Source: Lachnospiraceae bacterium
GTDB lineage: Bacteria > Bacillota > Clostridia > Lachnospirales > Lachnospiraceae
Reading direction: 5' to 3'
Assembly: GCA_017387565.1 (NCBI GenBank)
Contig: JAFOEY010000018.1
Span: 1 to 64,000 of the forward strand
DNA length: 64,000 bases
The notes beneath the pieces were generated by a model, which saw only the letters and a program-made list of their open reading frames with translations, ran no database searches and was not told the DNA's origin. Positions 29,915 through 54,160 of the stretch are shown here, one piece after another (position 1 is the first letter of the stretch; every line of letters begins with the position of its first letter). A program made the position numbers and the translations under genes.

Positions 29915-30368
29915 TTACTGCTCCATCTGTCTTCCCAAAAATGCTGCTGCCGATTGCGCCAGTTTCTTTTCCACTTCACCCATTTTTCCTTTTTCATTCG
30001 TATCCAGTAAAATTACGGCACCGATGACATCCCCTTCACAGATGATGGGTGCAATCATTTCCTGCTCATAAGCATCCTGCATCTCATGGGCAATTTCTAA
30101 AAACTGCTTTTCGCCTTTTCCCGCAAGAATGGTCTCTCTTCGCTCCAGGGCATCCTCCAAATGTCTGGAAAGACCTTTTCCATTAAAGGCTTTTCCACCT
30201 CCGGCTGTCGCAATAAACTGATCGCGGTCGGCAATGAGCGCCACCTTCCCGGAAACCTGTGCCAGGCTTTCCGCATATTGTTTTGCAAACGTACTCATTT
30301 CTCCAATAGGCGAATATTTTTTTAATATGATTTCTCCTTCTTTGCTTGTAAAGATTTCCATCGGATCG
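29915..30368 (-). pseudogene. spoVT: spoVT 3' part (interrupted by the mobile element)
   Basis: The GAF-like C-terminal part of the stage V sporulation regulator SpoVT (EIFTSKEGEIILKKYSPIGE onward, 148 residues). The N-terminal AbrB-type DNA-binding domain is missing here. The frame upstream of the first ATG meets a stop inside element DNA. The missing part lies 23.8 kb away at 54,137-54,231 on the same strand. Joining the two at the shared TCG core gives a continuous protein of about 181 residues, close to the normal SpoVT length. Any product from this fragment alone would lack DNA binding. Confidence 0.93.
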
Positions 30369-30390
30369 GGGTTGGATACCTAGTACTAAC
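30355..30390. other. Left attachment site of the element
   Basis: Core TCG at 30,366-30,368. To its left is spoVT; to its right is a 22-base arm (30,369-30,390) that includes GGATACCTAGTACTAA. This arm is the inverse of the arm at the right end with a few mismatches. Confidence 0.85.
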
Positions 30391-30394
30391 ACGC

Positions 30395-30422
30395 AAAAAA
30401 CCTTGAAAAATCAAGGTTTCTT
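30395..30422. terminator. Hairpin at the element's left end
   Basis: AAACCTTGA and TCAAGGTTT form a short stem just inside the left end, with T-rich DNA after it on the plus strand. It may insulate the element from spoVT. Confidence 0.5.
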
Positions 30423-30489
30423 ACACGTAACATTTTAGCACACTCTCAAATATCTGCCAATATGTAATATTTTATTTGTTTGATGGCAT

Positions 30490-31266
30490 CTAATAATCCA
30501 CTTCCTTATCATAAGGTATAAATTCCATTATTTTTTCTGGCATCACTGACACCTTTGTAGTTCCATCAAAGTTTACTTGATAATTATATTTCCAAAAATA
30601 CTTTCCTGCAACATAACTTATAAATTGAAACAAAATCGAATCTCGCTGATACCAAACTATATCCCCAAATGGCAATTTGAACTTTACTATTATCTGTTCA
30701 CCATTATCTTTAAGTACTTTATATATACTAGGCTCTTTTTCTTTTAACGCCCATCTTGCCAATTCACCACCAATATTTTCACAAAACTGTTCATAACCTG
30801 CTGATTCACCGTCATCTATAAGTGATAAATCCGAATAGAAACATAATGCCGGTTCTCTATTTATGTATTTCCTATCATATTCGTGCTTTATCAAAGTTAT
30901 TGCTTTGTTCAAATCTTCTTCACTAACATCGAGTTCTTTTAATGTTTTTGTCAATGTTTTTTCATACCAATTCCACTCATTTGGTTGTAATCCATCATTT
31001 ATAAAGCAAGCCTTGTTAAGTACCTTTGTGGAATGATAAACAATTATCTCATAGTCTTTCATAATATCAACCAACTCATTATATAATGACTCTGCTTTGA
31101 ATGGCCCCACATAATCTTCTATTGCACATCTAACATCAATTTCATATTCGATTTCTTCTGCTTTAATTTTTGCTTTAACCTCATCTGACAGTTTTGAAAA
31201 ATAATCAACCACAACATTTTCCAATTCAGCCGGATATGTACTAGGACGTGATACATCAACAACCAT
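30490..31266 (-). CDS. Unknown protein, possible ADP-ribosyltransferase fold
   Basis: A 258-residue protein. After a helical N-terminal part, IIVYHSTKVLNKACFINDGLQ resembles the first motif of PARP-like ADP-ribosyltransferases (Y-H-x-T and a following GL). ALCFYSD would be the second strand motif, and VMPEKIMEFIPYD holds a possible C-terminal Glu. This is a weak, motif-level match, and no catalytic claim is firm. The start at 31,266 has TAGGAGG before it. It is the cargo gene nearest the left end of the element, a common place for toxin or defence genes. Confidence 0.5.
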   Translation of the reverse strand: MVVDVSRPSTYPAELENVVVDYFSKLSDEVKAKIKAEEIEYEIDVRCAIEDYVGPFKAESLYNELVDIMKDYEIIVYHSTKVLNKACFINDGLQPNEWNWYEKTLTKTLKELDVSEEDLNKAITLIKHEYDRKYINREPALCFYSDLSLIDDGESAGYEQFCENIGGELARWALKEKEPSIYKVLKDNGEQIIVKFKLPFGDIVWYQRDSILFQFISYVAGKYFWKYNYQVNFDGTTKVSVMPEKIMEFIPYDKEVDY

Positions 31267-31337
31267 TTTATTACCTCCTACATCATCCAATATTTATATA
31301 TTGCTTCTATAAGAATAGCATAAAAAAGCATTTATCT

Positions 31338-32543
31338 CTATCTGTTTATATCCATTCGTTCAAATTTATCTTTTAACCTATCCATCGCTCTTAATTTTTC
31401 CATCGTGCCGGTTAGCACCATCTTAATATCTGAATATATTTTAGGAAATTTATATTTAAGTGGTTCAATAATCTTTCCTATTGTATCAAGTGCCATAATC
31501 AAAATATCCCTTTTGGACTTATTCACGACTGCATCAAAATCCTGCTTTGTCATACCATCATCCACAAGGTCATCTATGTAATCTTGAATATCCTCCTCAA
31601 TTCTATCCTTTGCTTCATCTACATCGCTTTTCGCAAGTAATACCTCCCTTGCTTCCGCTTCAATCTGTTCTAATTGACGTTCATTATCTTTCTGTGCCTG
31701 CTTAATCAATCTCTGAATACGCTCTTGGTCTGTGTCCTTCTGCCACTGTTCCAAACCTTTTACAACAGGATGCTCCTCCGGTTCTTTATCTTCATATATT
31801 TCGCCACGTTCAAATCCATATCGTTTATCCAACTTTTCAAATCGTCTATCATTAAATTCTCTGTAACTGGAATTATATCTGCCTGATTCTGCTTTCCACA
31901 CATCACCACGACTTAATTTTAAAAATTCTAAACCGTCTTTATCTTTACATTTCTTTGTTGTAATTACATCAACGTGCATATGTGGTTTAATATATGCGTA
32001 ATCATCACGTTCCCATTCTTCAAGTACTCGTTCTGTTCCATCCGGCATCGTAATACTTTCTGGTCTATACCATTCATCCAAATGGATATATGCCCCTAGC
32101 ACAATGGAATCAGAATATACATCCCCCTTAACAAATGCCAATGCATCTTCAAAATACTTGTATTCTGGACTATTGATAAAGTCCTCTATTTGGTCTTTGC
32201 GAATTTTAAATGGCGGACAAAATGTCATTGTTTCCAAAAATGTAGTAGTTTTCTTACCACCTTTTTTCTTATAAACACGTGGGGCGTAAAATTCCCCTTC
32301 CTTCAAAGTTCTTTTATCAAACTTTATCCCTGTTCTTAAATTATCCCATATCATCTTTCTATATCGCTTGCCATCCGTACCCACATCAAAAGAATAATTA
32401 TATTTTTGCAACTCCGGACGTGCGTTATTTTTTAATAGGTATCTTCTGTTATGTGCCTCCACATTATTAACTTCCGACCTACTGATATGTTCTTGTATCA
32501 CTACCACAGATACATTACTGGTTCTTTCAAATGTTCCCATACT
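31338..32543 (-). CDS. MobV-type relaxase (Mob_Pre family)
   Basis: A 401-residue relaxase that should nick the element at oriT for transfer. Motifs are EAHNRRY (His30-Asn31-Arg32-Arg33) at the N-terminus and GAYIHLDEW followed by IKPHMHVDVITTK, the metal-binding motif III of the MobV/Mob_Pre family. The C-terminal half is a long coiled coil (about 255-330). The start at 32,543 follows GGGAGG. The structured region immediately upstream is the likely oriT. Confidence 0.85.
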   Translation of the reverse strand, partial: SMGTFERTSNVSVVVIQEHISRSEVNNVEAHNRRYLLKNNARPELQKYNYSFDVGTDGKRYRKMIWDNLRTGIKFDKRTLKEGEFYAPRVYKKKGGKKTTTFLETMTFCPPFKIRKDQIEDFINSPEYKYFEDALAFVKGDVYSDSIVLGAYIHLDEWYRPESITMPDGTERVLEEWERDDYAYIKPHMHVDVITTKKCKDKDGLEFLKLSRGDVWKAESGRYNSSYREFNDRRFEKLDKRYGFERGEIYEDKEPEEHPVVKGLEQWQKDTDQERIQRLIKQAQKDNERQLEQIEAEAREVLLAKSDVDEAKDRIEEDIQDYIDDLVDDGMTKQDFDAVVNKSKRDILIMALDTIGKIIEPLKYKFPKIYSDIKMVLTGTMEKLRAMDRLKDKFERMDINR

Positions 32544-32572
32544 ACCTCCCCCTTTCATAAACTAATATGATT

Positions 32573-32659
32573 TACGGTCAGCACATCTAACAGGAAAATC
32601 TCTGTTAAATGTATCCCAATACTTTGAAAATACTTTTCAAAATTGGGCTACTGACCGTA
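32573..32659. other. Three-way-junction structure, oriT candidate
   Basis: The outer stem TACGGTCAG/CTGACCGTA (32,573-581 and 32,651-659) is perfect. It encloses two hairpins: TAACAG/CTGTTA (588-593 and 602-607), and CCCAAT plus TTTGAAAA with TTTTCAAA plus ATTGGG (615-630 and 634-647). It lies 30 bases before the relaxase start, where MobV oriTs are found. Confidence 0.55.
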
Positions 32660-32696
32660 GGGGCTTGAAAGTTGTATAAAGCACAACTTCCATTTA

Positions 32697-32724
32697 AGAA
32701 ATACCAAACTGCCGGTATTTCTTA
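32697..32724. other. Perfect 10-bp hairpin
   Basis: AAGAAATACC and GGTATTTCTT around an 8-base loop, between the oriT candidate and the dyad array. It could be a terminator or part of the transfer origin. Confidence 0.4.
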
Positions 32725-32881: not shown

Positions 32882-32919
32882 ACCTTTACAAATGTCGTAT
32901 TGCGATGTATTGTAAAGGT
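32882..32919 (+). promoter_or_regulatory. 5' hairpin of the 32,944 gene
   Basis: ACCTTTACAA and TTGTAAAGGT pair across an 18-base loop, 24 bases before the start codon. Probably an operator or an RNA leader structure. Confidence 0.4.
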
Positions 32920-32943
32920 ATCACATCTATAAAGGAGGGGCGT

Positions 32944-33351
32944 ATGAAAGAATCTGAACGCATCCAAGCATTTCTTAATCAACACAAATCATTATTAGAA
33001 GCAAATCATATTGATGTAGCCCATTCTGTCGTTAATGACGAATGGTTTATCTATTGCTACGAACCGGTATATGGACATTATGAATACTTTATTAAATTTA
33101 CTACCGTGGAACAACTAATTAACATCATAATAGAAGAAATGTCTTTTATGCTTCGGCTTTTCTTAGATGATGAACTTGAAACTCCAGAGTGCGAAGAAGA
33201 CCCAGAACTTGCTGACCGTATCGAACGCTATCACAAAGAAGATAGAAGCATCCCAGAACTGATTGCTTGTATCGACCACATCCTTGAAACCGATTTAGGG
33301 CAAGATGTAGATTTCTTCAAAGCATTAAAAAACTTAATTACATATAAATAA
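32944..33351 (+). CDS. Small acidic hypothetical protein
   Basis: A 135-residue acidic protein, not recognised. It opens with a charged helix (MKESERIQAFLNQHKSLLEANHIDVAHSVVND) and ends in helices. AAGGAGGGG lies four bases upstream of the chosen ATG. The pattern of a helix followed by 'HID' and a strand recalls the small proteins at 51.7-52.4 kb in the same element, so it may be a distant relative. It is controlled by the dyad array and hairpin upstream. The group II intron 3' end lies within about five bases of its stop. Confidence 0.65.
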   Translation: MKESERIQAFLNQHKSLLEANHIDVAHSVVNDEWFIYCYEPVYGHYEYFIKFTTVEQLINIIIEEMSFMLRLFLDDELETPECEEDPELADRIERYHKEDRSIPELIACIDHILETDLGQDVDFFKALKNLITYK

Positions 33352-33355
33352 GCAA

Positions 33356-35203
33356 TCGAGTAGGAGAAAATTTCTCGATTGAGAAATTTTCGACCTCTCA
33401 CACCACCGTGCGTACCGTTCGGTACACGGCGGTTCAATCAACTTAACAAGTAACACACCTTTCGGTGTAGTAATCTAACATTGAGACTAATCCAAATTGG
33501 GTTAGTCTCTTGTTCGTTATAGCTACATTTACAGCTCCACATTTACATACATGTGCATATGCCCTTGTACAGTATGCTACTCTGTATGCTATATGTTTAT
33601 TTATTCCCAGTTTTCTAAGGTTCTTCGCTCTATTCTTTGGCGTTTTCCAATGTTTCCAAATACACATTCGAAGTCTGTAGCGTATGTTGCTATCTAACTC
33701 TCGACATAGTTCTTTCATGCTGCCGATTTTGAAATAGTTTATCCATCCTCGGATTAACTGATTAAGTTTCTCAACCTTATAACTGTTACTGACTCCCCAG
33801 CTTCGGCTCGTCAGTTTCTTCATTTTCATCTTGAACTTTAGTACGGATGTCTGATGTGGTTTTGCCTTGTACTGTTTTGCATGGCTATCAAAGTAAAATC
33901 CAAAACCAAGGTATTTCAGTCCTCTTGGCTTGTCTATTTTGCTCTTTGTCATGTTCACTTTGAGGCCTAGTTTTTCTTCAATAAAACGGGTAAGATTTCT
34001 CATCACTCGTCTTGCTGACATTTCACTTCCTACCATGATGATACAATCGTCTGCATATCTTACGAAGTTCAATCCTCGTTTTTCAATTTCCTTATCAAGT
34101 TCATTGAGCATGATGTTCGCTAAGAGTGGCGATAGGTTTCCACCTTGTGGTGTTCCTATAACCGAATCTTCGTATTCATCATCAATCATGATGCCACTCA
34201 CCAAGAACTTTCGAATTATGGAGATAACATCTCCATCCTTGATAGTCCTTCCAATGAGTGTCATGATTTTATCATGATTTACTGTGTCAAAGAACTTTTC
34301 CAAGTCAATATCCACAATCCAATCATTTCCATCATTCATCATATCAAGTGCCTTTAGTATTGCCTGCTGTGCACATCGATTTGGACGGAATCCGTAACTG
34401 TGATTATGGAACTGTTCCTCGTAAATAGGTGTAAGCACTTGTGCAATCGCTTGTTGCACAAATCGGTCAGTTACTGTTGGTACTCCTAGGTTTCTGACTC
34501 CACCATCAGGTTTTGGTATTTCTACCCTTCGTACTGGTTGAGGTTTGTATTTCCTTGTCCTCAACTGTTCTTTGATGCTTTCGCCGTTTTCTGCAAGGTG
34601 TTCTTTTAGTTCTGTGTACTTCATTCCGTCCACTCCCTCTGCACCTTTGTTTCTTACGACTTGCAGATACGCTTGGTTTAGATTTTCATTTGAGAGTATC
34701 TGCTCCATTAGATTACTTGTGTCCATGCGTTGTTTCCTTTCCGTCTCGCTAAGTTTGACCACCTTTAACCCATTCGGCAGATGTATGTCTTCTCTGCAAT
34801 ACGAGACTTACTCCAACTGATTGATTGTTCAGCCCTTCGCTCCATTCCCATTACAGGAACTTCTTCACTACTATGGCTTCTGCTGACTTCTCACAGTTCG
34901 TTGTTACTAGGTTTTACCCTCTGTGAGACCTCCACGCTTAAGGTGCACGCTCTTTCACTCCATATATCCGCCGCATTTACTCTGCTACTACAAACGTGGT
35001 AGTTATTAGACTTTGTTGTATTTAGCCAACTTATCTCTCGTAGCCTAGCCTTATATGCGATTTCTGTCCGTCGGACCAGAGATTTGCTTACAGCTTCCTT
35101 CAGATTCCACCTCACGATGAACACCCTTGCTGTTCAGCTATACATTTCCCACTACCTGGGCATGCTCGGGACTTACACCCGTTAGAGCGCGCCCATGGCG
35201 CGC
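33356..35203 (-). mobile_element. Group II intron, class C-like
   Basis: About 1.85 kb on the minus strand. The 3' end carries domain V (paired ACCGCCGTGTACC/GGTACGCACGGTGG, about 33,395-33,437) and domain VI (GAAAATTTCTC/GAGAAATTTTC, 33,366-33,391). The 5' end begins near GCGCGCCATGGGCGCGC (about 35,185-35,203). It sits directly behind a hairpin terminator (35,214-35,244), the known target type of class C introns. Ends are accurate to about ten bases. Confidence 0.85.
33443..34762 (-). CDS. ltrA: Group II intron reverse transcriptase/maturase
   Basis: A 439-residue intron-encoded protein. Reverse transcriptase motifs are visible: RRVEIPKPDGGVRNLGVPTV, SYGFRPNRCAQQAI, IVDIDLEKFFDTVNHD, GTPQGGNLSPLLANI and the active site FVRYADDCII. 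The maturase (X) domain follows (LNQLIRGWINYFKIG). There is no HNH endonuclease domain, and the length (about 420-440) fits class C intron proteins. It splices the intron and drives its mobility. All motifs are intact. The start could also be at 34,726 (MDTSNLMEQIL). Confidence 0.95.
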   Translation of the reverse strand: MVKLSETERKQRMDTSNLMEQILSNENLNQAYLQVVRNKGAEGVDGMKYTELKEHLAENGESIKEQLRTRKYKPQPVRRVEIPKPDGGVRNLGVPTVTDRFVQQAIAQVLTPIYEEQFHNHSYGFRPNRCAQQAILKALDMMNDGNDWIVDIDLEKFFDTVNHDKIMTLIGRTIKDGDVISIIRKFLVSGIMIDDEYEDSVIGTPQGGNLSPLLANIMLNELDKEIEKRGLNFVRYADDCIIMVGSEMSARRVMRNLTRFIEEKLGLKVNMTKSKIDKPRGLKYLGFGFYFDSHAKQYKAKPHQTSVLKFKMKMKKLTSRSWGVSNSYKVEKLNQLIRGWINYFKIGSMKELCRELDSNIRYRLRMCIWKHWKTPKNRAKNLRKLGINKHIAYRVAYCTRAYAHVCKCGAVNVAITNKRLTQFGLVSMLDYYTERCVTC

Positions 35204-35697: not shown

Positions 35698-36711
35698 TTA
35701 ATCATCAAATATCGTCTTACCTTCATACCTGCTTTCATTGATTGCCTGCTTAACAGTCCTTGGCATCGAATATTCAATCAATGCTTTTTTTAACTTCGTA
35801 GCATAGGAAGAAGAAAAACCCATATAATCTACATAGTCATATCTATTTTCTGGTGCTTTACGACTGATATTAAACAATAAAGATGTTACCTTTTTCATTT
35901 CATCGCCATTACGATTTAAAGGATGATTCTCCATAGAAGCAACAATTATTTCAACTTCTTCCTCGTCTGATATACCGGTGCAACCATTTTCTCTGTATTT
36001 CTTTATAAATAGTTCCTGATACTTCACGTGATGCCCCATAATGGTAATATCTGTCTTTTCATTGATTTCTTTGACCGCTTTTAATAGATGCTTCTGCTTT
36101 AAATTACCATATCCATAGGTAGCACCTATCATCTTTTTCAATCCATCCACTGAAACCGATGTATGCCCCACTGACATAAACGAACGCAAGTACTCATATA
36201 GCACCTTTGCCAACTTGTCCTTTAACGAAATATAATGACCCACTTCTATTTCTGTATATTTACCTTCTTTTGTGCATACAAAATCCCTTAACGTAGGCGA
36301 TAGCCTCACACTACATTCTTTTGTTGCTTCGTCATATTTCACCGCATCAATATACTGGCAGTTATAAATCTGTATTACTTCCTGACCGAACTCCACTTTA
36401 CGAACCGGTATTTCAAATTGTACCTTTTGCATATCCTTAAATATCTGCACATAGTTCTCTCTGGCTTCGTTGGAATACTTCGACCAATCTTTACTTGCCC
36501 TATATCGCCAAAAACTTGGAAAATGAAAGTGAATCCACTCTGTAAAATCCTTTCCTGCACGTACATTTTCCATCGCACACGCCACCGCCCAGATAAATAA
36601 ATCCTGTTGCATCTCCGTTAATTTTACCTTTGTGCCATTACGCACATTTCTAACAAAGTCATTTGTCATATATGCCCTTTGCTTTAAATTATAAACATCA
36701 TAATTTGCCAT
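35698..36711 (-). CDS. Rep_3-like replication initiator
   Basis: A 337-residue protein resembling plasmid initiators of the Rep_3/RepB type, with paired winged-helix-like regions: LKDKLAKVLYEYLRSFM and VSVDGLKKMIGATYGYGNLKQKHLLKAVKEINEKTDI. The start at 36,711 (MANYDVYNLKQRAYM) has AAGGAGG before it. Iteron-like repeats lie about 100 bases upstream. This suggests that the element can replicate when excised. The family assignment is from pattern, not a search. Confidence 0.65.
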   Translation of the reverse strand: MANYDVYNLKQRAYMTNDFVRNVRNGTKVKLTEMQQDLFIWAVACAMENVRAGKDFTEWIHFHFPSFWRYRASKDWSKYSNEARENYVQIFKDMQKVQFEIPVRKVEFGQEVIQIYNCQYIDAVKYDEATKECSVRLSPTLRDFVCTKEGKYTEIEVGHYISLKDKLAKVLYEYLRSFMSVGHTSVSVDGLKKMIGATYGYGNLKQKHLLKAVKEINEKTDITIMGHHVKYQELFIKKYRENGCTGISDEEEVEIIVASMENHPLNRNGDEMKKVTSLLFNISRKAPENRYDYVDYMGFSSSYATKLKKALIEYSMPRTVKQAINESRYEGKTIFDD

Positions 36712-37407
36712 TTTCAGACCTCCTTTTATATTTTTCATTAGTAATATGACAGACGATAACCATTTTGAAAGAAAAACTTTTAAAAAGTTATCATATTTTT
36801 TTCTCCATACGGTTATTCAACTGCTCCAACCGGTTATCAATAATTGCACCAATCCGGTATCAACATAAAAATAGCGATGAACTGCAACAATGCTAAACAA
36901 CAGCATTTCATTCAGATCACCGCAAAAGTCAGAATAGTAAATATTATAGAAGTATAAGAACAAGTTTTAAATTCACCAGATAATACGCACATCAATATCA
37001 ATGAATAATCTGGTGCTTCCAGATGTTCATTGGACTGTCGTGTTAATCCGCACCCAATACAGCAACTCTATTTATTTCTACCTTGCATATCAACCCCCTG
37101 CCCCCACGCTTGGGGGAATATTGTAGAGTGGTTAGAACACACCTATTAGTTGATTGCCTGTCCGTGGTAGGTTCAAATATAAATCTTTTTTCCGTGATGC
37201 ACGCCAAGTTGCTGTTGGGTCTGACTTTCTGGTTTGCTAAGCGTAACGCCAATCCAAATGAACCGGATAACAAAACAAGCACACCAAGAAGGTATGCTCG
37301 TGTTTGTGATTATAAATATTAAATTCATTTGTTCCGCTTTTCAGATTTCCCCCACAACAAATTTATTAGTTCTGCTTTCACTCGTAGACCCCTTAAAGAA
37401 AGAAGTA
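36712..37407. other. Replication origin candidate and gene-free gap
   Basis: Three imperfect iteron-like repeats of CCGGTTATCAA lie at 36,809-36,820, 36,830-36,840 and 36,854-36,863, spaced 21-24 bases. Further on are a dyad CACCAGAT/ATCTGGTG (36,974-37,015) and a short hairpin CCCCCA/TTGGGGG (37,101-37,116). No credible gene is present; small open frames here lack ribosome binding sites. Confidence 0.5.
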
Positions 37408-38215: not shown

Positions 38216-39202
38216 TTATCTTGCTTCACTGTAATATCTATCTTCATAACTTGGTACTGGATTCTCTACTACTACCGACAAGCCTTTTTCATTATAAAAA
38301 TAAATAGAATCTGACAAATACTCATCTGGGCGTAATTTTTCTTCATTCACAAATGCCACCATTTCTTTTAATTCCGCAACATTATATCTTTCGTCATAAG
38401 GTACTACTATTAGTTCGTGAATACTACTTGGCAAAACAAAAAAATCACTTCCAAGTTGTTCTCTAACCGTATTCATTGCATTTTCATACATAAGAACACT
38501 TGCACCATATACATCACCGCCACGAATAACCCAAGCAGGAATTGAATTACCATCATCCCTACTTTGAATAAGCATTTGCTTAAATTCTTCATCCGGCATA
38601 TCCTCACAACCCATTTCATATTTTACCGCAAACAACATTCCATCCTGTTCCATCATCTCTATGGTTAATTCTGTTAAAGAATGTATTTCCATCGGTTTCA
38701 TATTTGGTGTATTCACATCGGCAATATCAAAAAGCATTTCTTCTGTAATACCCCAAACATCAATAATTTTATTTTGAATTGTAACTGTTGCACCATTTCC
38801 CAAATCAAGATAACATACAACCGCTAAATCCTCTGCTACTTCTATCCAAGGAACTTCCTCTAATAGTTCTGCATTGGCATCTTTATTGATAACACGATAT
38901 GCAATTTTGTCCTTCATAGCATCGAAATTAAGTATTTCAGATACATCAAATGGAATTTCTTGGTCTTTGATTCTTTGAAAACGCTCAACCACTTCCACTG
39001 CTGTTTCAAATGGTGTCATACCGCTCATATAATCATCATCTAGATATATGACCGGCGAAATATTACTTGCTCTGTTATGAATACATATACCATTCAATTC
39101 CATACCATTATTTTTTCTTGTTAGATTATAAGTCACTTCATACTGATTTGATGTAAGTTCCTTAATGCCATCTATCACTTCACTAATATATTTTTCATCC
39201 AT
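38216..39202 (-). CDS. DUF5688 family protein
   Basis: A 328-residue cytoplasmic protein matching the DUF5688 pattern common on Lachnospiraceae integrative elements (ISPVIYLDDDYMSGMTPFETAVEVVERFQ, IAYRVINKDANAELLEEVPWIEVAEDLAVVCYLDL, GASVLMYENAMNTV, SSIHELIVVP). The function is unknown. It lies between the ArdC-like gene and small unknown genes and has its own terminator. Confidence 0.8.
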   Translation of the reverse strand: MDEKYISEVIDGIKELTSNQYEVTYNLTRKNNGMELNGICIHNRASNISPVIYLDDDYMSGMTPFETAVEVVERFQRIKDQEIPFDVSEILNFDAMKDKIAYRVINKDANAELLEEVPWIEVAEDLAVVCYLDLGNGATVTIQNKIIDVWGITEEMLFDIADVNTPNMKPMEIHSLTELTIEMMEQDGMLFAVKYEMGCEDMPDEEFKQMLIQSRDDGNSIPAWVIRGGDVYGASVLMYENAMNTVREQLGSDFFVLPSSIHELIVVPYDERYNVAELKEMVAFVNEEKLRPDEYLSDSIYFYNEKGLSVVVENPVPSYEDRYYSEAR

Positions 39203-40553: not shown

Positions 40554-40634
40554 ACAATCACCTCTTTCTTTTAGTCTTAATAATAGTATGACTGCCAGAA
40601 ACAGTTCATAATTCAAACTTCAACATATTTTTAC

Positions 40635-41277: not shown

Positions 41278-41493
41278 CTAATTACATTCCTGTTCTTTTA
41301 GTGCTTGATACTGCTTTTTCCAAGCCCTAGAAGGTTGCTTGCAAACACAATCAGCATTTGCAAATGCACAAACACCTTCCACACCATTCCATTTGCATAT
41401 ATCAGGGTTATTTTGCCGACACCCAAATGTCTGTGTTTCACTATCCACTTCATTAAGTGGAGCAGAAAATTTCACTTTAATACTATTTCTCAT
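41278..41493 (-). CDS. Small cysteine-rich protein
   Basis: A 71-residue protein with six to seven cysteines: GCRQNNPDICKWNGVEGVCAF then DCVCKQPSRAWKKQY, which suggests a zinc- or iron-sulfur-binding knuckle. The ATG at 41,493 lies within the hsdS end (overlap ATGAGAAATAG, about 11 bases), so it is translationally coupled to hsdS. It may belong with the restriction system. Family unknown. Confidence 0.6.
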   Translation of the reverse strand: MRNSIKVKFSAPLNEVDSETQTFGCRQNNPDICKWNGVEGVCAFANADCVCKQPSRAWKKQYQALKEQECN

Positions 41494-47300: not shown

Positions 47301-47392
47301 TTCTGATTCTTCTTTGTCTGATAAGTAAAACCCAATCTACGAAAATGAAGCAATCCCGGTAATTTCACCCTGCTATCTTCATTAAATGCCAT
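44342..47392 (-). CDS. hsdR: Type I restriction endonuclease subunit
   Basis: A 1016-residue HsdR. The N-terminal PD-(D/E)XK nuclease motif is FRPDITILVNGIPLAFVEVKKP. The helicase motor has Walker A HTQGSGKTAYSYF, motif II YFMDEVHRG, and motif VI TLARVNRPYKSMRYGYVVDFVD. It moves along and cuts unmodified DNA together with HsdM and HsdS. All motifs appear intact. A recombinase-fold gene lies 54 bases upstream in the same direction and may be part of the same transcript. Confidence 0.96.
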   Translation of the reverse strand: MAFNEDSRVKLPGLLHFRRLGFTYQTKKNQNIQQHNNIFVDVFKASIREINGKDYSDEQLDATIKEIEILTDNQKDKGQGFFNRLRAYSEMRLINLEEPEKNDFRVVSELTFKGERDVKFRPDITILVNGIPLAFVEVKKPNNQNGIQAEFKRMREERLNREELVHFFNQLQVLGFTNNQDYDDDSKTKKLGSYYTTPNGAKSTKYNHFREEQEIPVSEYISDADIDMVLSDNNAMSIKNDAEFLENMKIDTYANRFLTSVFSKERLIFFIRYGLVYVDSPVDGFHKHIIRYPQYFALQEMLKDVKSGVKRSVLWHTQGSGKTAYSYFATNMLRDYFQGKDVITKFYFVVDRLDLLTQASAEFSARGMTIASINSKEDFVNNMQSPVVMDGSSQKGKYTETMNVVNIQKFSEDSTAIPDGDTVIQRIYFMDEVHRGYKPKGTFLGNLLGSDPNGIFIGLTGTPILETVQDENGKKHNKPKRDFKTTDLFCKYIHKYYYNKSIADGYTLKIKKENIDTQFRNDLRGMLGIPDGKQIPAKKWEDVTKSEKYVEQLCQYIVDDFANFEEVQNDESMGFMVVASSSEQARMIQSWFEDNTDISTALVLYDEEDNKAKQELFRGKRNTETGEIEIKYKGVIVFNMLLTGFDAPRLKRLYLLRTIREHNLLQTLARVNRPYKSMRYGYVVDFVDITEEYEETNKRYLEELRNDIEDEDGRADVEDMFVDVAEVRRKIVELENSLFIYMGNIENNLEAFRKQIEPLNEKTVREIDHALTEYRECYNELRMSHEDVSNIPIDRIVKAQHETSHRIQVLVQQRLLDEDCEDVEEVDFTDLIVDFIRNGEIDLEFTTENDIMELLAKFNNAKSKNIDKQDPVYQEIYNRYKQMLKTFKQEADTTEKVQSFMVQIKDLTLEIEVLNQNNNSLVNRYRGYEEYMRIHKRIRENYSDNLNDMTTYKLMVEIIKSIDDLLGHMATPSKNVVMRELLRPVRDALRSQGFTDVSKRQVENIIYIFIDDKFAQ

Positions 47393-47446: not shown

Positions 47447-48331
47447 TTAGTCATTCCGCACTTTCAGTTCTTCTTGGCAATATTCAAAAAGTGCCTGTGA
47501 CAATGCCTTACGCCCTGTCTTTAATTTGTATCGTTTATAGTCAATATCTGTCATTCTTGGAATCCCTAACTGCTCACACGCCAGTAGAAGTTCAACACCC
47601 TGCACATCTACCAGATGCACTAATTCATCAAACATTTCGTGGCGTTTACCGTGACGTTTAGGCTTCCTGCTGATACCATATAATTCTTCCTGTTCCAGTT
47701 GTGCAAAGCCATAATTAAACAACGGATGGTTATTTAATTCGTATTCCTTCGCCCACTTATAAAACACCGTCTTAGATACGCCACCGGCTTCTTCAAATGC
47801 AGTATCTTCCTTTGTGAAGAAGTTTTCATATCGCCAATAAGCATCAACAAATTCCTGTGTCATCGGTGCAGAAAACTTTCCACGATTATCTTTTATAGGT
47901 ACAGACTGCAACTCTTCATATAACATCATTAGTTCCTGTGTGCTATGTACACTATATCCCCCAAAGTCACAAGTGCTATATTTGTTCAATCCTGTTTCTT
48001 CATTGGTCTTATCCGGTATCAATAGATTTATTCGTCTGTCTATAACAGTCTTATAAAACTCCGCAACTTCTGTACTATTCTTTCCTGTGGCGTTCAAGTC
48101 CACAAGCACCAAAATATCATCTTCTTCCATAGTGTTTAGTAGTTCTTCCAACTTCCTACGTTTTGGATTATTGCCATTCAACACATCTACAATCAGATTT
48201 TCCGTATCAAAGAACATCTCTTGGAACTGTGTCTGCAAGGATTTATATGCCTTGGTGCTTTCTATCCTTGTTTCTATCTCTTTTTTAGTTTTTCCAGTGG
48301 TAATACATCCATATCCATACATTGTACTCAT
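47447..48331 (-). CDS. Serine-recombinase-fold protein without catalytic residues
   Basis: A 294-residue protein. The first 110 residues follow the resolvase fold: a first strand YGYGCITTG, then KRRKLEELLNTMEEDDILVLVDLNATGKN and VIDRRINLLIPD. Compared with the element's integrase (ARIS, LTRFGRR), the catalytic Arg and Ser are replaced by Cys9 and Thr11, and both Arg of the second motif are Asn and Lys. The C-terminal part has helix-turn-helix-like stretches (GGVSKTVFYKWAKEY and RKALSQALFEYCQEEL). It is more likely a regulator than a recombinase. It is divergent from the integrase side and upstream of hsdR. Confidence 0.65.
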   Translation of the reverse strand: MSTMYGYGCITTGKTKKEIETRIESTKAYKSLQTQFQEMFFDTENLIVDVLNGNNPKRRKLEELLNTMEEDDILVLVDLNATGKNSTEVAEFYKTVIDRRINLLIPDKTNEETGLNKYSTCDFGGYSVHSTQELMMLYEELQSVPIKDNRGKFSAPMTQEFVDAYWRYENFFTKEDTAFEEAGGVSKTVFYKWAKEYELNNHPLFNYGFAQLEQEELYGISRKPKRHGKRHEMFDELVHLVDVQGVELLLACEQLGIPRMTDIDYKRYKLKTGRKALSQALFEYCQEELKVRND

Positions 48332-48425: not shown

Positions 48426-48454
48426 TTGACAAAGCAAATTACACCTGATATGAT
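48426..48454 (+). promoter_or_regulatory. Promoter 1 of the integrase side
   Basis: TTGACA (48,426-48,431), 17-base spacer, TATGAT (48,449-48,454), preceded closely by a 22-bp box. Confidence 0.7.
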
Positions 48455-48492
48455 GGTAGAAAAGAATATAGTATTTTTTTATTACTTTTCTC

Positions 48493-48521
48493 TTGACAAA
48501 GAAAAAAACATCTGATATTAT
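48493..48521 (+). promoter_or_regulatory. Promoter 2 of the integrase side
   Basis: TTGACA (48,493-48,498), 17-base spacer, TATTAT (48,516-48,521). Promoter and box are a tandem duplicate of promoter 1, about 67 bases apart. Confidence 0.75.
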
Positions 48522-48782: not shown

Positions 48783-49004
48783 ATGAAGATAGTTCAAAAC
48801 GATGCTGAAAAACGTTGCGAAATCTGGATTTTCAACTCAGAAAAAGCAACTTACAAACAAGATGACAATTACATTACTGCTGTTGCAAATGCAACCGCCA
48901 AGAAGTATTTGGTATGTACCTTTATTTCCGGTGAAGAAGAATTGCTTCCCTTGATGCACCAGATACTTGATGCACACAACTACACATTACCAAAAGCAAG
49001 TTAG
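48783..49004 (+). CDS. Small hypothetical protein
   Basis: A 73-residue protein with strands (CEIWIFNSEKATY, KKYLVCTFISG) and a C-terminal helix, not recognised. AAAGGAG precedes the start. It is the first gene downstream of the box array and directly upstream of the integrase, so it may be an excisionase-like or regulatory partner; this is position-based inference only. Confidence 0.55.
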   Translation: MKIVQNDAEKRCEIWIFNSEKATYKQDDNYITAVANATAKKYLVCTFISGEEELLPLMHQILDAHNYTLPKAS

Positions 49005-49070: not shown

Positions 49071-50819
49071 ATGTTAAATTTCAAAGACTTAAAACTTACC
49101 GATGTAAGACCTTGCAGTTACGCAAGAATTTCCGTAGATACCGATGAAGCAAGGGATGAAAATGCTTCTATCGAAAACCAGAAACTTATCAATAGCAACT
49201 TCATAAAGAAGAATTTTCCTAATTCTAAATTTGATATGGAAAAGGACACCTTCACCGATAGGGATAGAAGCGGTTGGACATTCAGCCAACGTACCGGCTA
49301 TCAGCAGATGAAAGCCCTTTGTCTTGCAGGCGTTTATAACGTGATTGTCGTAAAAGACTTAACACGTTTTGGACGAAGAACCTCGCAGGGTGCTAGTGAA
49401 CTTGAAGAACTGCTACGTGCAGGTATTCATATTGTAATGTCATCTGACAATAGCGAAATCGAAGAACTTGACCTTATCACTGTTGTTAAGTTAGCACTTG
49501 CTGAAAACGCTGTAACCGAAGCAAGCAAAAAGGTTCGCAGGGTTATCAAAGAAAAGCAGGAAGCCGGCACGTGGGTGACGAATGCCCCCTATGGGTATTA
49601 CTTATCCGGCTACAAGAACCAGACCCTTAACATTGACGAAGAAGGTAAAAAGGCGGTTCAAAAGATTTTTGAGATGTACGCCAACGGTTATGGCTATAAA
49701 GCCATAGCACACTATTTGACTGAACATAACTATCCTACCGGACGTGCATTGATGTTAAAACATATGATTGAACGTGAGGCTGATACAGAAAAGTTTCTAA
49801 AAACCCCTATCAATCCAGTTTGGAGTGTCGTGTCAGTCCAGAAGATTGTCACCAACGATTTCTATATTGGTACATTTACAACCGGTGTATGGTCACGTGA
49901 AGAAATCCACGGTACTGAAAAGCGTACCGACCCATCTACTCATCACAAGTTCCCAGACCATCACGAAGCGATGATTAGCAAGGAACTGTTTGAAAAGGTG
50001 CAAAAACTTAATAAAAAGGCTTCCAAAGGGCAGGCCGCTAAAACACAGAAGAAGTACAAGAACACCTACACCGGATTCTTATTCTGTGCAGATTGCGGAC
50101 AACCACTTTTCGGTACATCCAATGGTAAGAAATTCATGGGTTACATTTGCAGTAACTATATGAAGAACGGAATCAAAGGCAGTAATGCTGAACGATTACA
50201 GAAAAAGTGGATGAAGCAGGAAAACGACAATATCCACGTTCTTAATGCAAAAGAACGCAAGGTTGACTATTCCCACGAATTACTTGGTTGTAACGGTTCG
50301 CATCGTATTCACGAACACGAACTTAACGCAGTCATCAAATCCTATTTGACCGTCGCACGTGACCGTCTGGCATCTGCACTTGGTAATCTTGACCTTGCAA
50401 AATCGCAGGAACGCATTTACAAAAACAACTTGGAAATCGCAGACCTACAAAAGCAAATCGCAGAACACCAAGAAGCCCTTAAACTCACTACCAGACAGCG
50501 TTTGCAACAGATTCTTCAAAAACCGGATATGGAAGATTCCATTAACCAGACTTTTGATGAAATCGAATCTGAATACTACCAAAAAATTGCTACTTGCAAA
50601 GCAAGAATCAAAGCCCTTTCTGATGAAGCAGAAACCAGAAAGGAATTAAAAAGCAATCTCTCCAGTGTAATTGCCACCTTTAATCGTCTGATTGATAAAG
50701 ACGAATTTACCAAAGAAGATTTGGCTAAAATCGTAGAACGTATCGAAGTCGGCAAACACAAAGAACTGGAAGTTACCCTTTGTGCAAACATTGATATGAT
50801 GTTTGACCTTACAAATTAA
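49071..50819 (+). CDS. Large serine recombinase (integrase)
   Basis: A 582-residue site-specific recombinase. The N-terminal catalytic domain has SYARISVD (Arg19, Ser21), DRDRSGWTFSQRTGYQQM and VVKDLTRFGRR. The recombinase domain follows (APYGYYLSGYKNQTLNIDEEGKKAVQKIFEMYANGYGYKAIAHYL), then the zinc-ribbon domain (FCADCGQPLFG, with CSNYMKNG and LGCNGSHRI) and a coiled coil (about 440-540). It should integrate the element by cutting at the TCG core in spoVT. AAAGGAG precedes the ATG. Confidence 0.95.
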   Translation: MLNFKDLKLTDVRPCSYARISVDTDEARDENASIENQKLINSNFIKKNFPNSKFDMEKDTFTDRDRSGWTFSQRTGYQQMKALCLAGVYNVIVVKDLTRFGRRTSQGASELEELLRAGIHIVMSSDNSEIEELDLITVVKLALAENAVTEASKKVRRVIKEKQEAGTWVTNAPYGYYLSGYKNQTLNIDEEGKKAVQKIFEMYANGYGYKAIAHYLTEHNYPTGRALMLKHMIEREADTEKFLKTPINPVWSVVSVQKIVTNDFYIGTFTTGVWSREEIHGTEKRTDPSTHHKFPDHHEAMISKELFEKVQKLNKKASKGQAAKTQKKYKNTYTGFLFCADCGQPLFGTSNGKKFMGYICSNYMKNGIKGSNAERLQKKWMKQENDNIHVLNAKERKVDYSHELLGCNGSHRIHEHELNAVIKSYLTVARDRLASALGNLDLAKSQERIYKNNLEIADLQKQIAEHQEALKLTTRQRLQQILQKPDMEDSINQTFDEIESEYYQKIATCKARIKALSDEAETRKELKSNLSSVIATFNRLIDKDEFTKEDLAKIVERIEVGKHKELEVTLCANIDMMFDLTN

Positions 50820-50823: not shown

Positions 50824-50900
50824 CCCCAAGGGCTACCAAGCCCTTGGATAACAATACTAACGTGTTGGACGTACTCCAACAGAAAGCGAGGTTAATAATG
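50824..50900 (+). promoter_or_regulatory. Repeated 5' leader, copy 1
   Basis: Two hairpins: CCAAGGGCT/AGCCCTTGG (50,826-50,847) and TGTTGGA/TCCAACA (50,863-50,881), then GCGAGG and the ATG. The 76 bases from 50,825 to 50,900 are identical to copy 3. Confidence 0.7.
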
Positions 50901-51284
50901 ACTACTGGAAAATATTACACAACTTTACACAAGAACTTAAAAGGCGTATCTGAAAATTTTAAGAACGATGGCATCTATGATGTTTGTATCGTTAAGATGC
51001 CGGAAACCTTTGCATATCTATTCTGTGGATTTGACAGCAACTATTTATTCGAATTTCTCTGTGATGACAGCACGGACGAATCACTTTTTACAGAGTTCAC
51101 AGACGAACAGGTTGATGCACTATATCACATCGCAGATATTTATAAATTAACTGGCTCAGATGAAGAAGAAGCCACCACCAAGGCTACTACATATCTCGAC
51201 AAAAAACTTCTAGCATTGGCAAAAAAGGCTATCCATTCCTTCGGAAACGATAAGCGTGCTGCCCTTTCAGGTATGCACTGCTAA
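50898..51284 (+). CDS. Hypothetical protein behind leader copy 1
   Basis: A 128-residue protein, not recognised, with an acidic middle (CDDSTDESLFTEFTDEQVD). The start follows GAGG by six bases inside the repeated leader. It opens a cluster of small genes downstream of the integrase. Confidence 0.6.
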   Translation: MTTGKYYTTLHKNLKGVSENFKNDGIYDVCIVKMPETFAYLFCGFDSNYLFEFLCDDSTDESLFTEFTDEQVDALYHIADIYKLTGSDEEEATTKATTYLDKKLLALAKKAIHSFGNDKRAALSGMHC

Positions 51285-51367
51285 TATAACCGGAACTGCC
51301 AAGGGTGTATGCCCTTGGCTGATCCTAAACAACTATAAATAATACCAATGAAAGGCAGGAATAACTT

Positions 51368-51697
51368 ATGTATTTTAAAAACAAAGAAACAAGAACACAA
51401 TTTTTTAATCTAAAAAACGAAATTGAACACAACACCATATGCTCTGCATATCTTTACATCGGCAAAATAGAAGAAGAAGTACACATTGCATTCCTCGGAA
51501 GCGACGGATATATCCTTGCATCTGTATTCAATGACAAACCAACTAGTCTTCGTTCCATAAAGGCAGAAGAATTACTGCAAATTGTAATCAAATGGACAGA
51601 ACCTTATTCGAATATTTATGACTGTCCAATGGTCGTAATTAAGGATATTGATGATATTAAAACTCTATATAAATTATTAGTCAAAGATGCGTTTTAA
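51368..51697 (+). CDS. Small hypothetical protein (paralog family a)
   Basis: A 109-residue protein with a helix, strands (SAYLYIGKIEEEVHIAFLGSDGYIL) and a closing helix (IDDIKTLYKLLVKDAF). Layout and length resemble the two following genes, suggesting tandem duplication. GAAAGGCAGG precedes the start, and a CCAAGGG/CCCTTGG hairpin lies upstream (51,298-51,318). Function unknown. Confidence 0.55.
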   Translation: MYFKNKETRTQFFNLKNEIEHNTICSAYLYIGKIEEEVHIAFLGSDGYILASVFNDKPTSLRSIKAEELLQIVIKWTEPYSNIYDCPMVVIKDIDDIKTLYKLLVKDAF

Positions 51698-51718
51698 CAA
51701 AAGGAAGGCGGTACATAT

Positions 51719-52039
51719 ATGAAAAGCAATATTATAACTGATTCTAAAACATTATTTTCTAACCTCGAAAGTGATATAGCAAACAACCATATTCGTTACA
51801 TTCATTCATACCACGATAAAAAGGCAGACGTGTTCCACCATATTTTTTACGGAAATGAAGACACATTTACCAAGGTGATATATCACACAAAATCCGGCAC
51901 TCTTTCCATCTGCAAAATTTCCAACCAAGAACGACTTAATACGGTTGTTAAATGGGCTCACGGAAGCGGTACACTCGTTTGCTTTGATGAAAAGAAAGAT
52001 ATTCTTGCTATCTTTAATACTCTGAAAAAACTTATTTAG
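51719..52039 (+). CDS. Small hypothetical protein (paralog family b)
   Basis: A 106-residue protein with LFSNLESDIANNHIRYIHSYHDK near the start, similar in pattern to LCSVIQNAISEHHIDFIYSYRCD of the next gene. AAGGAAGGCGG precedes the start. The function is unknown. It is part of a tightly spaced run (about 15-20 bases between genes). Confidence 0.55.
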   Translation: MKSNIITDSKTLFSNLESDIANNHIRYIHSYHDKKADVFHHIFYGNEDTFTKVIYHTKSGTLSICKISNQERLNTVVKWAHGSGTLVCFDEKKDILAIFNTLKKLI

Positions 52040-52054
52040 AAAGGCGGTGCTTAA

Positions 52055-52399
52055 ATGCAAACACAAGAATTTTCTCTTTGTTCTGTAATACAGAACGCAA
52101 TTTCTGAACATCATATAGATTTTATCTATTCATACCGTTGTGACGGAAATGCAATTTTTATTATTCTTGCCAACGACAAGAACCTAGAAAGTGACGGTAT
52201 CGACCAAAAGGCTTTTCTTATTGAAGCCACTGACGATACTCACGATTATCATTTATCCATTCTTTTAGCAGAAGAATGGTTTGACCTCACAACAGAATTA
52301 CCAAATTGTGAAGGACAATATGTTTGCTACGGAAACGAAACTATAAACAATGTTCTACCGGAAATCGGCAGAATCTTAACAACTTATACAGAAAGGTAA
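52055..52399 (+). CDS. Small hypothetical protein (paralog family c)
   Basis: A 114-residue protein with the same pattern as its neighbour: a helix ending in HHIDFIYSY, a strand (AIFIILANDK), then an acidic part and a closing helix. GAAAGGCGG precedes the start. It is likely a diverged duplicate of the preceding gene. Function unknown. Confidence 0.55.
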   Translation: MQTQEFSLCSVIQNAISEHHIDFIYSYRCDGNAIFIILANDKNLESDGIDQKAFLIEATDDTHDYHLSILLAEEWFDLTTELPNCEGQYVCYGNETINNVLPEIGRILTTYTER

Positions 52400-52410
52400 A
52401 GGTGATTTAT

Positions 52411-52938
52411 ATGTTCATTTTAACAGATGATATTAAAGCAAAATTAGTACGTGACTTATCACGCAATTACAAACTAAAAGGATTTACTTATGAATTTATG
52501 GGTGATGCTTTATTATGTACCCACAAAAATGGTACAAGCACACTTATTGATTATTCTGATATTCCTGCTCGTTTCAGTTATAACAAACTTTTAAACGGAA
52601 CTTCCACTTACTTATCAGATATTCCGATGGCAATAGATAACATTTATCACAACCTCAAAATGCTATCTTATCCTGCTTTTATTAAAAAGATTAAAGCAAT
52701 CAAATCAGAAGCACCAAACGATAATGCAATCGAATATAAAATTAACGGATGCACTTTCTATTTTACCGCAACCGCTATATACAACGACAGAACCGGCACA
52801 CATCAACTTATGGTATGTATCACCCCTGAACTTCTGGAAGCACAGGGCGTAAATGTTGATGTATTCTTCCAAGATGTTGCCAAATGCTATTTAGATGATG
52901 ATGTAGATATACTTGACCCTACATATACAATTTCTTAA
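52411..52938 (+). CDS. Hypothetical protein
   Basis: A 175-residue protein, not recognised, with two strand-rich halves (KGFTYEFMGDALLCTHKNGTSTLIDY and EYKINGCTFYFTATAIYNDRTGT) that resemble each other loosely. The start at 52,411 has AAAGGTG before it. It ends just before leader copy 2. Confidence 0.55.
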   Translation: MFILTDDIKAKLVRDLSRNYKLKGFTYEFMGDALLCTHKNGTSTLIDYSDIPARFSYNKLLNGTSTYLSDIPMAIDNIYHNLKMLSYPAFIKKIKAIKSEAPNDNAIEYKINGCTFYFTATAIYNDRTGTHQLMVCITPELLEAQGVNVDVFFQDVAKCYLDDDVDILDPTYTIS

Positions 52939-52950
52939 TGATTCAAGACA

Positions 52951-53029
52951 CTCCCAAGGGCTACCAAGCCCTTGGATAACAAATACAAACGTGTTGGACG
53001 TACTCCAACAGAAAGTGAGGCTATATATG
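52951..53029 (+). promoter_or_regulatory. Repeated 5' leader, copy 2
   Basis: Same two hairpins as copies 1 and 3 (first at 52,954-52,975), with a few changes near the start codon and one extra base between the hairpins. It ends at the ATG of the 53,027 gene. Confidence 0.7.
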
Positions 53030-53662
53030 GCAAATTGGTGCACAAATACAATTAAAATTTACAGTGAACACAAAGACAAGTTAGCAGAATTAGAAAAATC
53101 ACTTAATGAATGGACAAGCAAAAACTATATGGATAACGGTTTTGGCGAAAAATGGCTTGGTAATATTGTGCTAGGTTCTGGATTAGGAACGATTGATGAA
53201 GATGAAGAAGATATTGACACAGATTTAGAATGTCGTGGGGCATTAGTCGACATAGACTTAACCAACGAATGTCTTTGGATTTCGACTGCAACGGCTTGGA
53301 AACCAATGCTTCAAATGTGGGTAAGATTGCTTGAAAAGTATCTTCCCGATGGAAAAATTATTTACTATGCAGAAGAACCGGGTTGGAACGTATATTGTTC
53401 AAATGACCCTGATATGAAGGATGTATATTTGTTAGGATTTTCAAACGTCAATGAAATCAATGAGATTATAGGATATGATATCAACGACTTTATGAATGGA
53501 TACGAAATTAAAGAAAAAGACCTTCGAAAATGTCTACAACTTCTTTTAAAAACGGATGAAAACGATATTGAAACATTAATAGAACAAATCGCATCAAAAT
53601 ACGATGAAAACCATCTTTGCATACTCAAATATGAGTTTATCGAACCGGAAGAATTAGATTAA
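53027..53662 (+). CDS. YubB/Api92-like (DUF1281) protein
   Basis: A 211-residue protein whose N-terminus MANWCTNTIKIYSEH matches the W-C-x-N signature of the YubB/DUF1281 ferredoxin-like family found on plasmids and phages. The middle holds TATAWKPMLQMWVRLLEKY and YYAEEPGWNVYC, also typical. The function of the family is unknown. It is translated from leader copy 2. Confidence 0.65.
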   Translation: MANWCTNTIKIYSEHKDKLAELEKSLNEWTSKNYMDNGFGEKWLGNIVLGSGLGTIDEDEEDIDTDLECRGALVDIDLTNECLWISTATAWKPMLQMWVRLLEKYLPDGKIIYYAEEPGWNVYCSNDPDMKDVYLLGFSNVNEINEIIGYDINDFMNGYEIKEKDLRKCLQLLLKTDENDIETLIEQIASKYDENHLCILKYEFIEPEELD

Positions 53663-53678
53663 AAATCACATAATAACT

Positions 53679-53754
53679 CCCAAGGGCTACCAAGCCCTTG
53701 GATAACAATACTAACGTGTTGGACGTACTCCAACAGAAAGCGAGGTTAATAATG
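53679..53754 (+). promoter_or_regulatory. Repeated 5' leader, copy 3
   Basis: 76 bases identical to copy 1 (50,825-50,900), including both hairpins, the GAGG and the ATG. Confidence 0.75.
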
Positions 53755-54054
53755 AATGAAGAACGTAGAAGAAAACAACTAATTGGCGAAATTAAAATGG
53801 CACGCTTAACCAAAGAAATTCAATCTATAATTATGCACGCAGATGACACAGATAAAGAATTTATATTAAAACTTCCATTTAAGACTATCTATATACATGC
53901 AACCATTCACGACGAAACATCCTCGATTGGCGTCTTATTCGGTGTAATATCAGAAGATGATGCTCTTGAATACTTAATGGACTGGTTTTTTGATGGTTTT
54001 GAAATTTTAGATTTGAACGAATTTGATACCTTAATTTCACCCTTATTAGTATAA
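53752..54054 (+). CDS. Small hypothetical protein behind leader copy 3
   Basis: A 100-residue protein with a basic N-terminal helix (NEERRRKQLIGEIKMARLTKEI) and a strand-rich rest, not recognised. It starts inside leader copy 3 and is followed by a strong terminator 2 bases after the stop. It is the last gene at the right end of the element. Confidence 0.6.
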   Translation: MNEERRRKQLIGEIKMARLTKEIQSIIMHADDTDKEFILKLPFKTIYIHATIHDETSSIGVLFGVISEDDALEYLMDWFFDGFEILDLNEFDTLISPLLV

Positions 54055-54055
54055 T

Positions 54056-54092
54056 AAAGAAAGGAAGCAGATTTCTCTGCTTCCTTTCTTTA
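54056..54092 (+). terminator. Terminator at the element's right end
   Basis: AAAGAAAGGAAGCAGA pairs perfectly with TCTGCTTCCTTTCTTT around a 4-base loop. Confidence 0.85.
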
Positions 54093-54114
54093 TATACTGG
54101 CATATTAATAATAA

Positions 54115-54160
54115 TTAGTACTGGGTATCTAGGCGGTCGCTTTCACGAATGTGTAACGTA
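54115..54160. other. Right attachment site of the element
   Basis: Core TCG at 54,137-54,139. The arm to its left (54,115-54,136; contains TTAGTACTGGGTATCTAGG) is the inverse of the left-end arm. To its right is spoVT. Confidence 0.85.

Follow-up and report, generated by a model that had tools for sequence, protein, structure and literature searches.

The DNA considered here is a stretch of 64,000 nucleotides (the window; positions 1 to 64,000 of contig JAFOEY010000018.1, from the Lachnospiraceae assembly GCA_017387565.1) in which the sporulation gene spoVT is interrupted at codon 32 by an integrated element. Our results suggest that this is a mobilizable-type integrative element inserted by its own large serine integrase by recombining attP with attB at the GA dinucleotide of that codon. 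Related integrases appear to target the same point repeatedly within the order, mostly as one open reading frame (ORF) with SpoVT residues 32-181. While the element is integrated, SpoVT is cut within its DNA-binding domain and would not be made, and late sporulation should fail. We put the probability of integration, recurrence and loss of SpoVT in the integrated state, taken together, at about 0.8. At the level of sequence anatomy the interruption is real, site-specific and recurrent; switching and its timing are putative. The pieces of the split gene and its junctions are as follows.

29915 to 30368, minus strand: 3' half of spoVT (codons 32-181), with the remaining DNA-binding domain and the entire C-terminal domain (Pfam SpoVT_C, 155 bits).
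54137 to 54231, minus strand: 5' half of spoVT (codons 1-32), with a TTG start, continuing into the element as a 38-codon frame.
30366 to 54136, no strand: integrated element of 23,771 bp, delimited by its junctions and by the empty site in the congeners G004 and G008.
30366 to 30390, no strand: left attachment junction and attP half-arm (exchange dinucleotide 30366-30367).
54115 to 54139, no strand: right attachment junction and attP half-arm (exchange dinucleotide 54137-54138).

Both pieces of spoVT lie on the minus strand and both junctions contain TCG (30,366-30,368 and 54,137-54,139), as had been proposed from an earlier reading of the letters alone (the sequence-only reading), which placed the end of the C-terminal part at 30,368 and the start of the N-terminal part at 54,137. 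Its further proposal, that the outer halves rejoin in frame as the expected SpoVT, is borne out: the joined flanks give a single open frame, ...HIRESDPMEIF..., of 181 aa counted from the TTG (an in-frame ATG lies nearby at 54,246, minus strand), and a nearly identical uninterrupted gene is present in G004. Alignments run straight across the empty-site junction in G004 (1,616 bp, 98.1%) and G008 (1,033 bp, 97.5%), and the rebuilt gene differs from theirs at 1 and 15 of 546 bases, respectively, without amino acid changes in either case. In a search of the eight other genomes of the genus, SpoVT was matched along all 181 residues in six, with 99% identity in G004 and G008 (the query there began with M), and no SpoVT was found in G001 and G007. 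The host genome (G000) has a single SpoVT above the cut-off; one further match reaches 21.1 bits against a cut-off of 27.5.

Joining the inner ends of the element produces a dyad centred between the T and the C of TCG, with 16 of 26 positions paired. Equal pairing was reached by 18 of 20,000 random window joins when four centres were allowed, and 18 of 2,000 joins were as good in a looser control with the centre free. The attB pairs at 7 of 26 positions around the same centre, compared with 16 of 26 for attP, and the central dinucleotide is non-palindromic. These values support the view that the joined inner ends are as expected for the attP of the large serine integrase at 49,071. The sequence-only reading had described this attP as two symmetric 22-base arms around TCG; the arms are in fact imperfect, and the TC dinucleotide (GA on the coding strand) describes the exchange point better than a three-base core does. 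The window's attP arm was not found in viral_contigs.

The TC of the window's plus strand is the GA of codon 32 on the coding strand, identical to the dyad centre of the relatives. Seven relatives had both spoVT halves fetched (G679, G627, G528, G604, G535, G170 and G682). SpoVT could be rebuilt in all seven (177-181 aa), and of the 34 dyad centres tried in each, the GA of codon 32 always scored highest (14-21 of 26 pairs). When the relatives' own contigs were joined at random, pairing as good arose in 0 of 5,000 trials for five of them, 1 of 5,000 for G170 and 50 of 5,000 for G682. The attachment arms near TGTCAATGTTATC are common to six of the seven, i.e., those in which integrase and SpoVT are fused. 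A search for the same insertion point in other genomes, suggested along with the original proposal, finds it to be recurrent.

Integrase relatives were sought in 397 genomes of the family at E 1e-60 and in a class-level draw of 371 genomes at E 1e-80. Besides the window's own, the former gave G106, G170 and G333 and the latter only G106; weaker large serine integrases were present in four of six congeners searched. A description of the three relatives as integrases beside other genes was dropped when through-translation showed a fusion to SpoVT: each is a single ORF whose integrase part shares 32-34% identity with the window's along its length and reads on in frame into SpoVT (residues 28-181). 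An order-level search with SpoVT covered 392 genomes, 265 of them with a match at E 1e-18, including a lower-scoring group. Twelve low scorers were chosen, and spoVT is split in seven and full length in five. Six of the split copies (G528, G535, G543, G604, G627 and G679) are fused to a large serine integrase in open frames of 720-738 aa, and the seventh (G682) is unfused. With G000, G067 and G106, this gives a split spoVT in at least 10 of the 265 SpoVT-matching genomes; the count is a floor among the matches listed, with eleven more low scorers outside it and G170 and G333 additional, and for G067, G106 and G543 the gene is called split from its C-half only.

Complete fused ORFs, open to the end of SpoVT, number 12 (10 genomes, the scaffold MT836658.1 and the viral contig locus L212); their domains were confirmed in one by Pfam (Resolvase, Recombinase, zinc ribbon and SpoVT_C) and in two by NCBIfam. 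The scan of viral contigs that gave the complete fusion L212 also gave two fusions cut by contig ends (L214 and L215), a locus that ends at the core (L213) and one cut before the fusion point (L216); L214 is identical to G333 over the 631 residues compared. Scanning viral_contigs with SpoVT gave 80 loci, mostly matching at the AbrB-like N-terminus alone. MT836658.1 (L151), a human-faecal scaffold filed as phage, carries the same fusion, and in MT839487.1 (L150) the integrase ORF stops just short of the join. Both records are filed as Bacteriophage sp. yet bear integrases of the spoVT-site clade. Its strong MobV relaxase (178 bits) indicates that MT839487.1 is probably a mobilizable element rather than a phage.

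The starts of the N- and C-halves lie on one contig at a spacing of 33.9 kb in G679 (a single-contig genome), 12.6 kb in G627 and 77.9 kb in G528, and the cargo varies among the elements compared. The window element appears to be inverted relative to the fused class, because its integrase faces the N-half whereas the integrases of the fused class face the C-half. The element that G682 has at this codon-32 dinucleotide is of a different kind. Its contigs C190 (L186) and C252 (L187) show different arms, an unfused SpoVT C-half and that dinucleotide, and the C-half contig contains a different recombinase-like frame, with 26-31% identity to the others.

Because the core and the frame are shared, integration would exchange the C-terminus of a fused-class integrase for the SpoVT domain; in the excised element the integrase would end in an N-side tail, whose length past the core is 25-38 residues in the six rebuilt fused cases. 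In laboratory fusions of integrases to directionality factors, the protein fused to the serine integrase reportedly controls direction. The spoVT-site fusion differs in being natural and in joining the integrase to a domain of a host transcription factor, and any effect on direction or other function is putative.

In a tree of 39 large serine integrases, the 16 spoVT-site rows, including the window's, fall on one side of a branch with support 99/99. The other 23 rows are integrases from the named-genome search, and closer integrases from other sites, if any, lie outside this sample; the spoVT label of L213 and MT839487.1 is presumptive, as their contigs end at or just before the core. The earliest branch is that of G067, which is fused, and the window's follows, so that fusion may be the older state, although the order is unsure with both on long branches. 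As far as sequence comparison goes, the window element belongs to the spoVT-site clade as a divergent member, inverted and unfused. Its integrase module comprises the following.

49071 to 50819, plus strand: large serine integrase, 582 aa, unfused, oriented toward the spoVT N-half (Resolvase, Recombinase and zinc-ribbon domains).
48783 to 49004, plus strand: 73-aa partner protein, common to most spoVT-site integrase loci (profile search).
48426 to 48521, plus strand: two tandem extended -10 vegetative-type promoter-like sites in a 68-bp repeat, directed toward the integrase module.

The integrase proposed at 49,071 has all three domains in one protein. It stops 3.3 kb from the junction on the strand opposite to spoVT, so that there is no in-frame fusion to SpoVT. 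An exact-peptide search for its relatives gave distant large serine integrases only (best 29% in named bacterial genomes and best 30% in viral contigs), and among plasmid and phage records none was 60% identical or more. A profile of the 73-aa protein, made from eight relatives with the window copy excluded, picks out the window copy from 19,483 ORFs at E 1.4e-9 and likewise finds copies outside its training set in G528, G627, L212 and L213; the next match is L040 (E 0.004). The partner lies upstream of the integrase in 8 of 10 fused genomes, and one is also present in L216, the locus cut before the fusion point. None of 25 other large serine integrase loci scored like it in an earlier pairwise test; a pattern search found it at 0 of 11 loci, and the profile later found it in most. 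We infer that it is most likely a directionality factor or regulator. The promoter-like sites each match 11 of 12 consensus positions and have TG ahead of the -10.

The window integrase is probably transcribed in vegetative cells, and because of this excision would be expected at low frequency during growth, not locked to sporulation. Precise excision would restore spoVT, as the joins described above and the spoVT mutants in the literature suggest, so the inactivation may be reversible; the circle would perhaps be maintained by its own Rep3 origin. Set against the two biological rivals discussed below, excision during growth is our tentative choice, at somewhat less than even odds.

Several observations weigh against this reading as a whole. 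The window integrase is about 31-35% identical to those of the fused class and sits on a branch of 2.06 changes per column, and the profile search did not find the 73-aa partner beside the integrases of G535 or G543. Promoter-like sites across the region number 19, compared with 21.0 in shuffles, i.e., there is no excess. The MobV-like protein of the element is divergent, the match being weak and no single stretch exceeding the Mob_Pre cut-off alone. The insertion in the window looks recent, at 1 of 546 bases from G004, and spoVT may simply be dead. Sporulation loss also seems to be tolerated in the genus, because G007 (91% complete) has no sigG-, sigF-, sigE- or sigK-like match, SASP (small acid-soluble spore protein) or SpoVT. 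A second congener, G001, has no SigG-like match together with no SpoVT. In favour of the reading, the host genome (2.9 Mb, 69 contigs, 1.7% contamination) has SigF-like, SigE-like and SigK-like sigma factors and one SASP, the names sigF, sigE and sigK being read from graded scores of which none is above the cut-off. Its SigG-like protein reaches 405 bits where the family cut-off is 457, and those of the six congeners having one also stay below it (405-417 bits).

It is possible, though we think it doubtful, that this is an intervening element under developmental timing, as skin and SP-beta are, whose excision in sporulating cells restores spoVT on schedule. The sole spoVT, its precise in-frame rebuilding and the retention of other sporulation genes would fit such a role, and so would the constraint on the split halves. 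Aligning 19 intact copies defined 36 conserved positions, and some of the 19 were also among the copies scored against them. Among the 12 split copies scored, a set without L212 and the window copy, 11 keep 32-36 of these positions (34-36 in ten and 32 in G170), and MT836658.1 keeps 25. The ratio of nonsynonymous to synonymous rates (dN/dS) was taken against intact copies of the same genus for 20 split-intact pairs, the window copy not being in the table; dS was too high in 11, and the 9 computable pairs gave 0.00-0.09, compared with 0.00-0.07 among intact pairs. This constraint agrees with a SpoVT still in use and equally with a recent insertion, and it may predate the insertion. The split copy of G679 appears unusually diverged, with dN of 0.113-0.133 to seven intact copies of its genus (all seven saturated in dS), compared with 0.010-0.051 among the intact copies themselves. 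Between G535 and G543, both split, the SpoVT half has a dN of 0.006; the element has probably moved between these two lineages, because dS is 0.18 for the integrase and 0.43 for the SpoVT half, and the pair is thus not decisive on selection while split. Timed excision also meets the difficulty that spoVT is a forespore gene in the species studied, so that the element would be stripped from the spore genome, whereas almost all known cases are in mother-cell genes (PMC6957869, in the text available). The sites ahead of the integrase look vegetative. Sporulation-promoter motifs, used in a loose form, are distributed over the element roughly in proportion to length, with none between 48,331 and the integrase start.

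Plain loss of function, in which the strain would have lost sporulation permanently through the element and the split gene would decay with time, we regard as unlikely to much the same degree. The apparent recency of the insertion and the existence of an asporogenous congener speak for it, as does the greater divergence of the split copies of G679 and MT836658.1. However, the integrase, its partner gene and the attachment sites look intact, and the clade recurs at the exact point with the SpoVT halves in frame and 12 complete fused ORFs open to the SpoVT end. A distinctly less probable idea is that the fused class works as a built-in switch. The C-terminal, sensor-type domain of SpoVT, once on the integrated integrase, would hold or release excision, the element leaving the forespore gene on time, and replicating forms such as the window's would survive as a circle in the spore and return at germination. 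A system of this kind, if real, would be the first among intervening elements to operate in the germ-line (forespore) compartment. A draft of 69 contigs with 1.7% contamination leaves some opening for an artefact of assembly or binning that placed unrelated DNA within spoVT, but this is extremely improbable, as both flanks are collinear with congeners, the join restores the exact gene and the single-contig genome G679 has the same structure.

Intervening elements of sporulation genes include, in the available text of PMC4191935, PMC5595907, PMC6957869 and PMC10747680, skin in sigK, SP-beta in spsM, phi3T in kamA, vfbin in spoVFB, vrin in spoVR, gin in gerE and yin in yabG. The last two are treated in PMC5595907 and PMC10747680, and gin, as far as that text goes, is also non-phage, like the element described here. 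All share with our case a recombinase of their own, a split sporulation gene and an exact join that restores the frame. They differ in that almost all interrupt mother-cell genes (the compartment of yabG is not stated in the text available), while spoVT is a forespore regulator in the species studied, and in that the integrase of most spoVT-site relatives forms one ORF with the target protein. The reason given for the mother-cell bias, in the portion of PMC4191935 available, is that excision is kept out of the spore genome. The corresponding portions of PMC3789822 and PMC5061766 describe spoVT as dependent on sigma-F and sigma-G in C. difficile and SpoVT of B. cereus as essential for complete sporulation and produced in the forespore. 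In gut Firmicutes, integrative mobilizable elements carrying serine integrases (PMC6907783, available text) resemble the window element in having a serine integrase, a relaxase-like gene and cargo, with no phage structural genes found; the window element differs in targeting codon 32 of spoVT and in adding Rep3-type replication and type I restriction. The SpoV genes mentioned in that text are cargo.

We found no report, among the matches listed in the literature searched, of spoVT as an integration site or of an integrase-SpoVT fusion, in keeping with the sequence-only reading, which knew of no such element at spoVT. Another study reportedly describes an integrase clade that repeatedly targets one gene. 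One-gene-targeting clades as described in the available text of PMC10083194 share with ours one clade, one site and varied cargo; here, by contrast, the integrases target a sporulation regulator and mostly read in frame into it, and neither SpoV nor AbrB occurs in the main text of that paper.

Many gut anaerobes pass from one host to the next by way of spore formation. A recurrent element able to break, and possibly to mend, a key regulator of that process would make sporulation come and go with mobile DNA, and element traffic at spoVT could explain patchy sporulation among close relatives. The site departs from the reported mother-cell-gene pattern, and the natural fusions of integrase and host protein provide a set for studying the control of integrase direction.

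The remaining features of the element are listed below.

30490 to 31290, minus strand: 266-aa ORF, with no Pfam, NCBIfam or PHROG match and one weak PADLOC helix-turn-helix match.
31338 to 32558, minus strand: MobV-type relaxase-like protein (Pfam Mob_Pre, 30.3 bits, cut-off 25.5).
32905 to 33351, plus strand: 148-aa ORF, function unassigned (Pfam scan).
33443 to 34762, minus strand: group II intron reverse transcriptase/maturase (RVT_1, GIIM).
34832 to 35121, minus strand: group II intron RNA domains D1-D4 (Rfam RF01998, RF02001).
35698 to 36738, minus strand: Rep3-type plasmid replication initiator (Rep3_N and Rep3_C above cut-off).
36805 to 36871, no strand: three iteron-like repeats of 21-23 bp upstream of rep, seen by eye and not reported by repeat tools.
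38216 to 39202, minus strand: DUF5688 protein (Pfam, 235 bits).
39309 to 40616, minus strand: ArdC-like antirestriction protein (ArdcN, MPTase-PolyVal).
41483 to 42742, minus strand: HsdS, type I restriction specificity subunit (Pfam, PADLOC).
42729 to 44321, minus strand: HsdM, type I restriction methyltransferase (Pfam, PADLOC).
44342 to 47392, minus strand: HsdR, type I restriction endonuclease (Pfam, PADLOC).
47447 to 48331, minus strand: resolvase N-domain-like protein (Pfam Resolvase, 24.9 bits, cut-off 23.3).
50825 to 54054, plus strand: row of small ORFs, three with a common 77-nt leader of two hairpins.

The combination of integrase and relaxase that marks an integrative mobilizable element is present, with the relaxase match weak (30.3 bits against 25.5). 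No phage structural families were found by Pfam (25 element ORFs) or PHROGs (10 element ORFs), and Pfam gave no match to conjugation machinery among the 25 element ORFs scanned. The backbone of the window element appears to be rare: at E 1e-20 its MobV-like protein had matches in 0 of 396 and its Rep3 protein in 0 of 298 other family genomes, and plasmid records gave weak Rep3 matches and no MobV match.

The 77-nt leader, with its two hairpins and a ribosome site, occurs at 50825-50901, 52954-53030 and 53679-53755, each time before a different small ORF and always downstream of the integrase; the second and third copies are 100% and 70% identical to the first, and the hairpin core was not found in viral_contigs. 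The group II intron and its maturase (33443-35121) are nested within the element. The resolvase N-domain-like gene, whose catalytic motif we take to be degenerate, adjoins the integrase module on the opposite strand. Outside the element, the window contains a Clostridiales-1 RNA at 981-1133 (116 bits).

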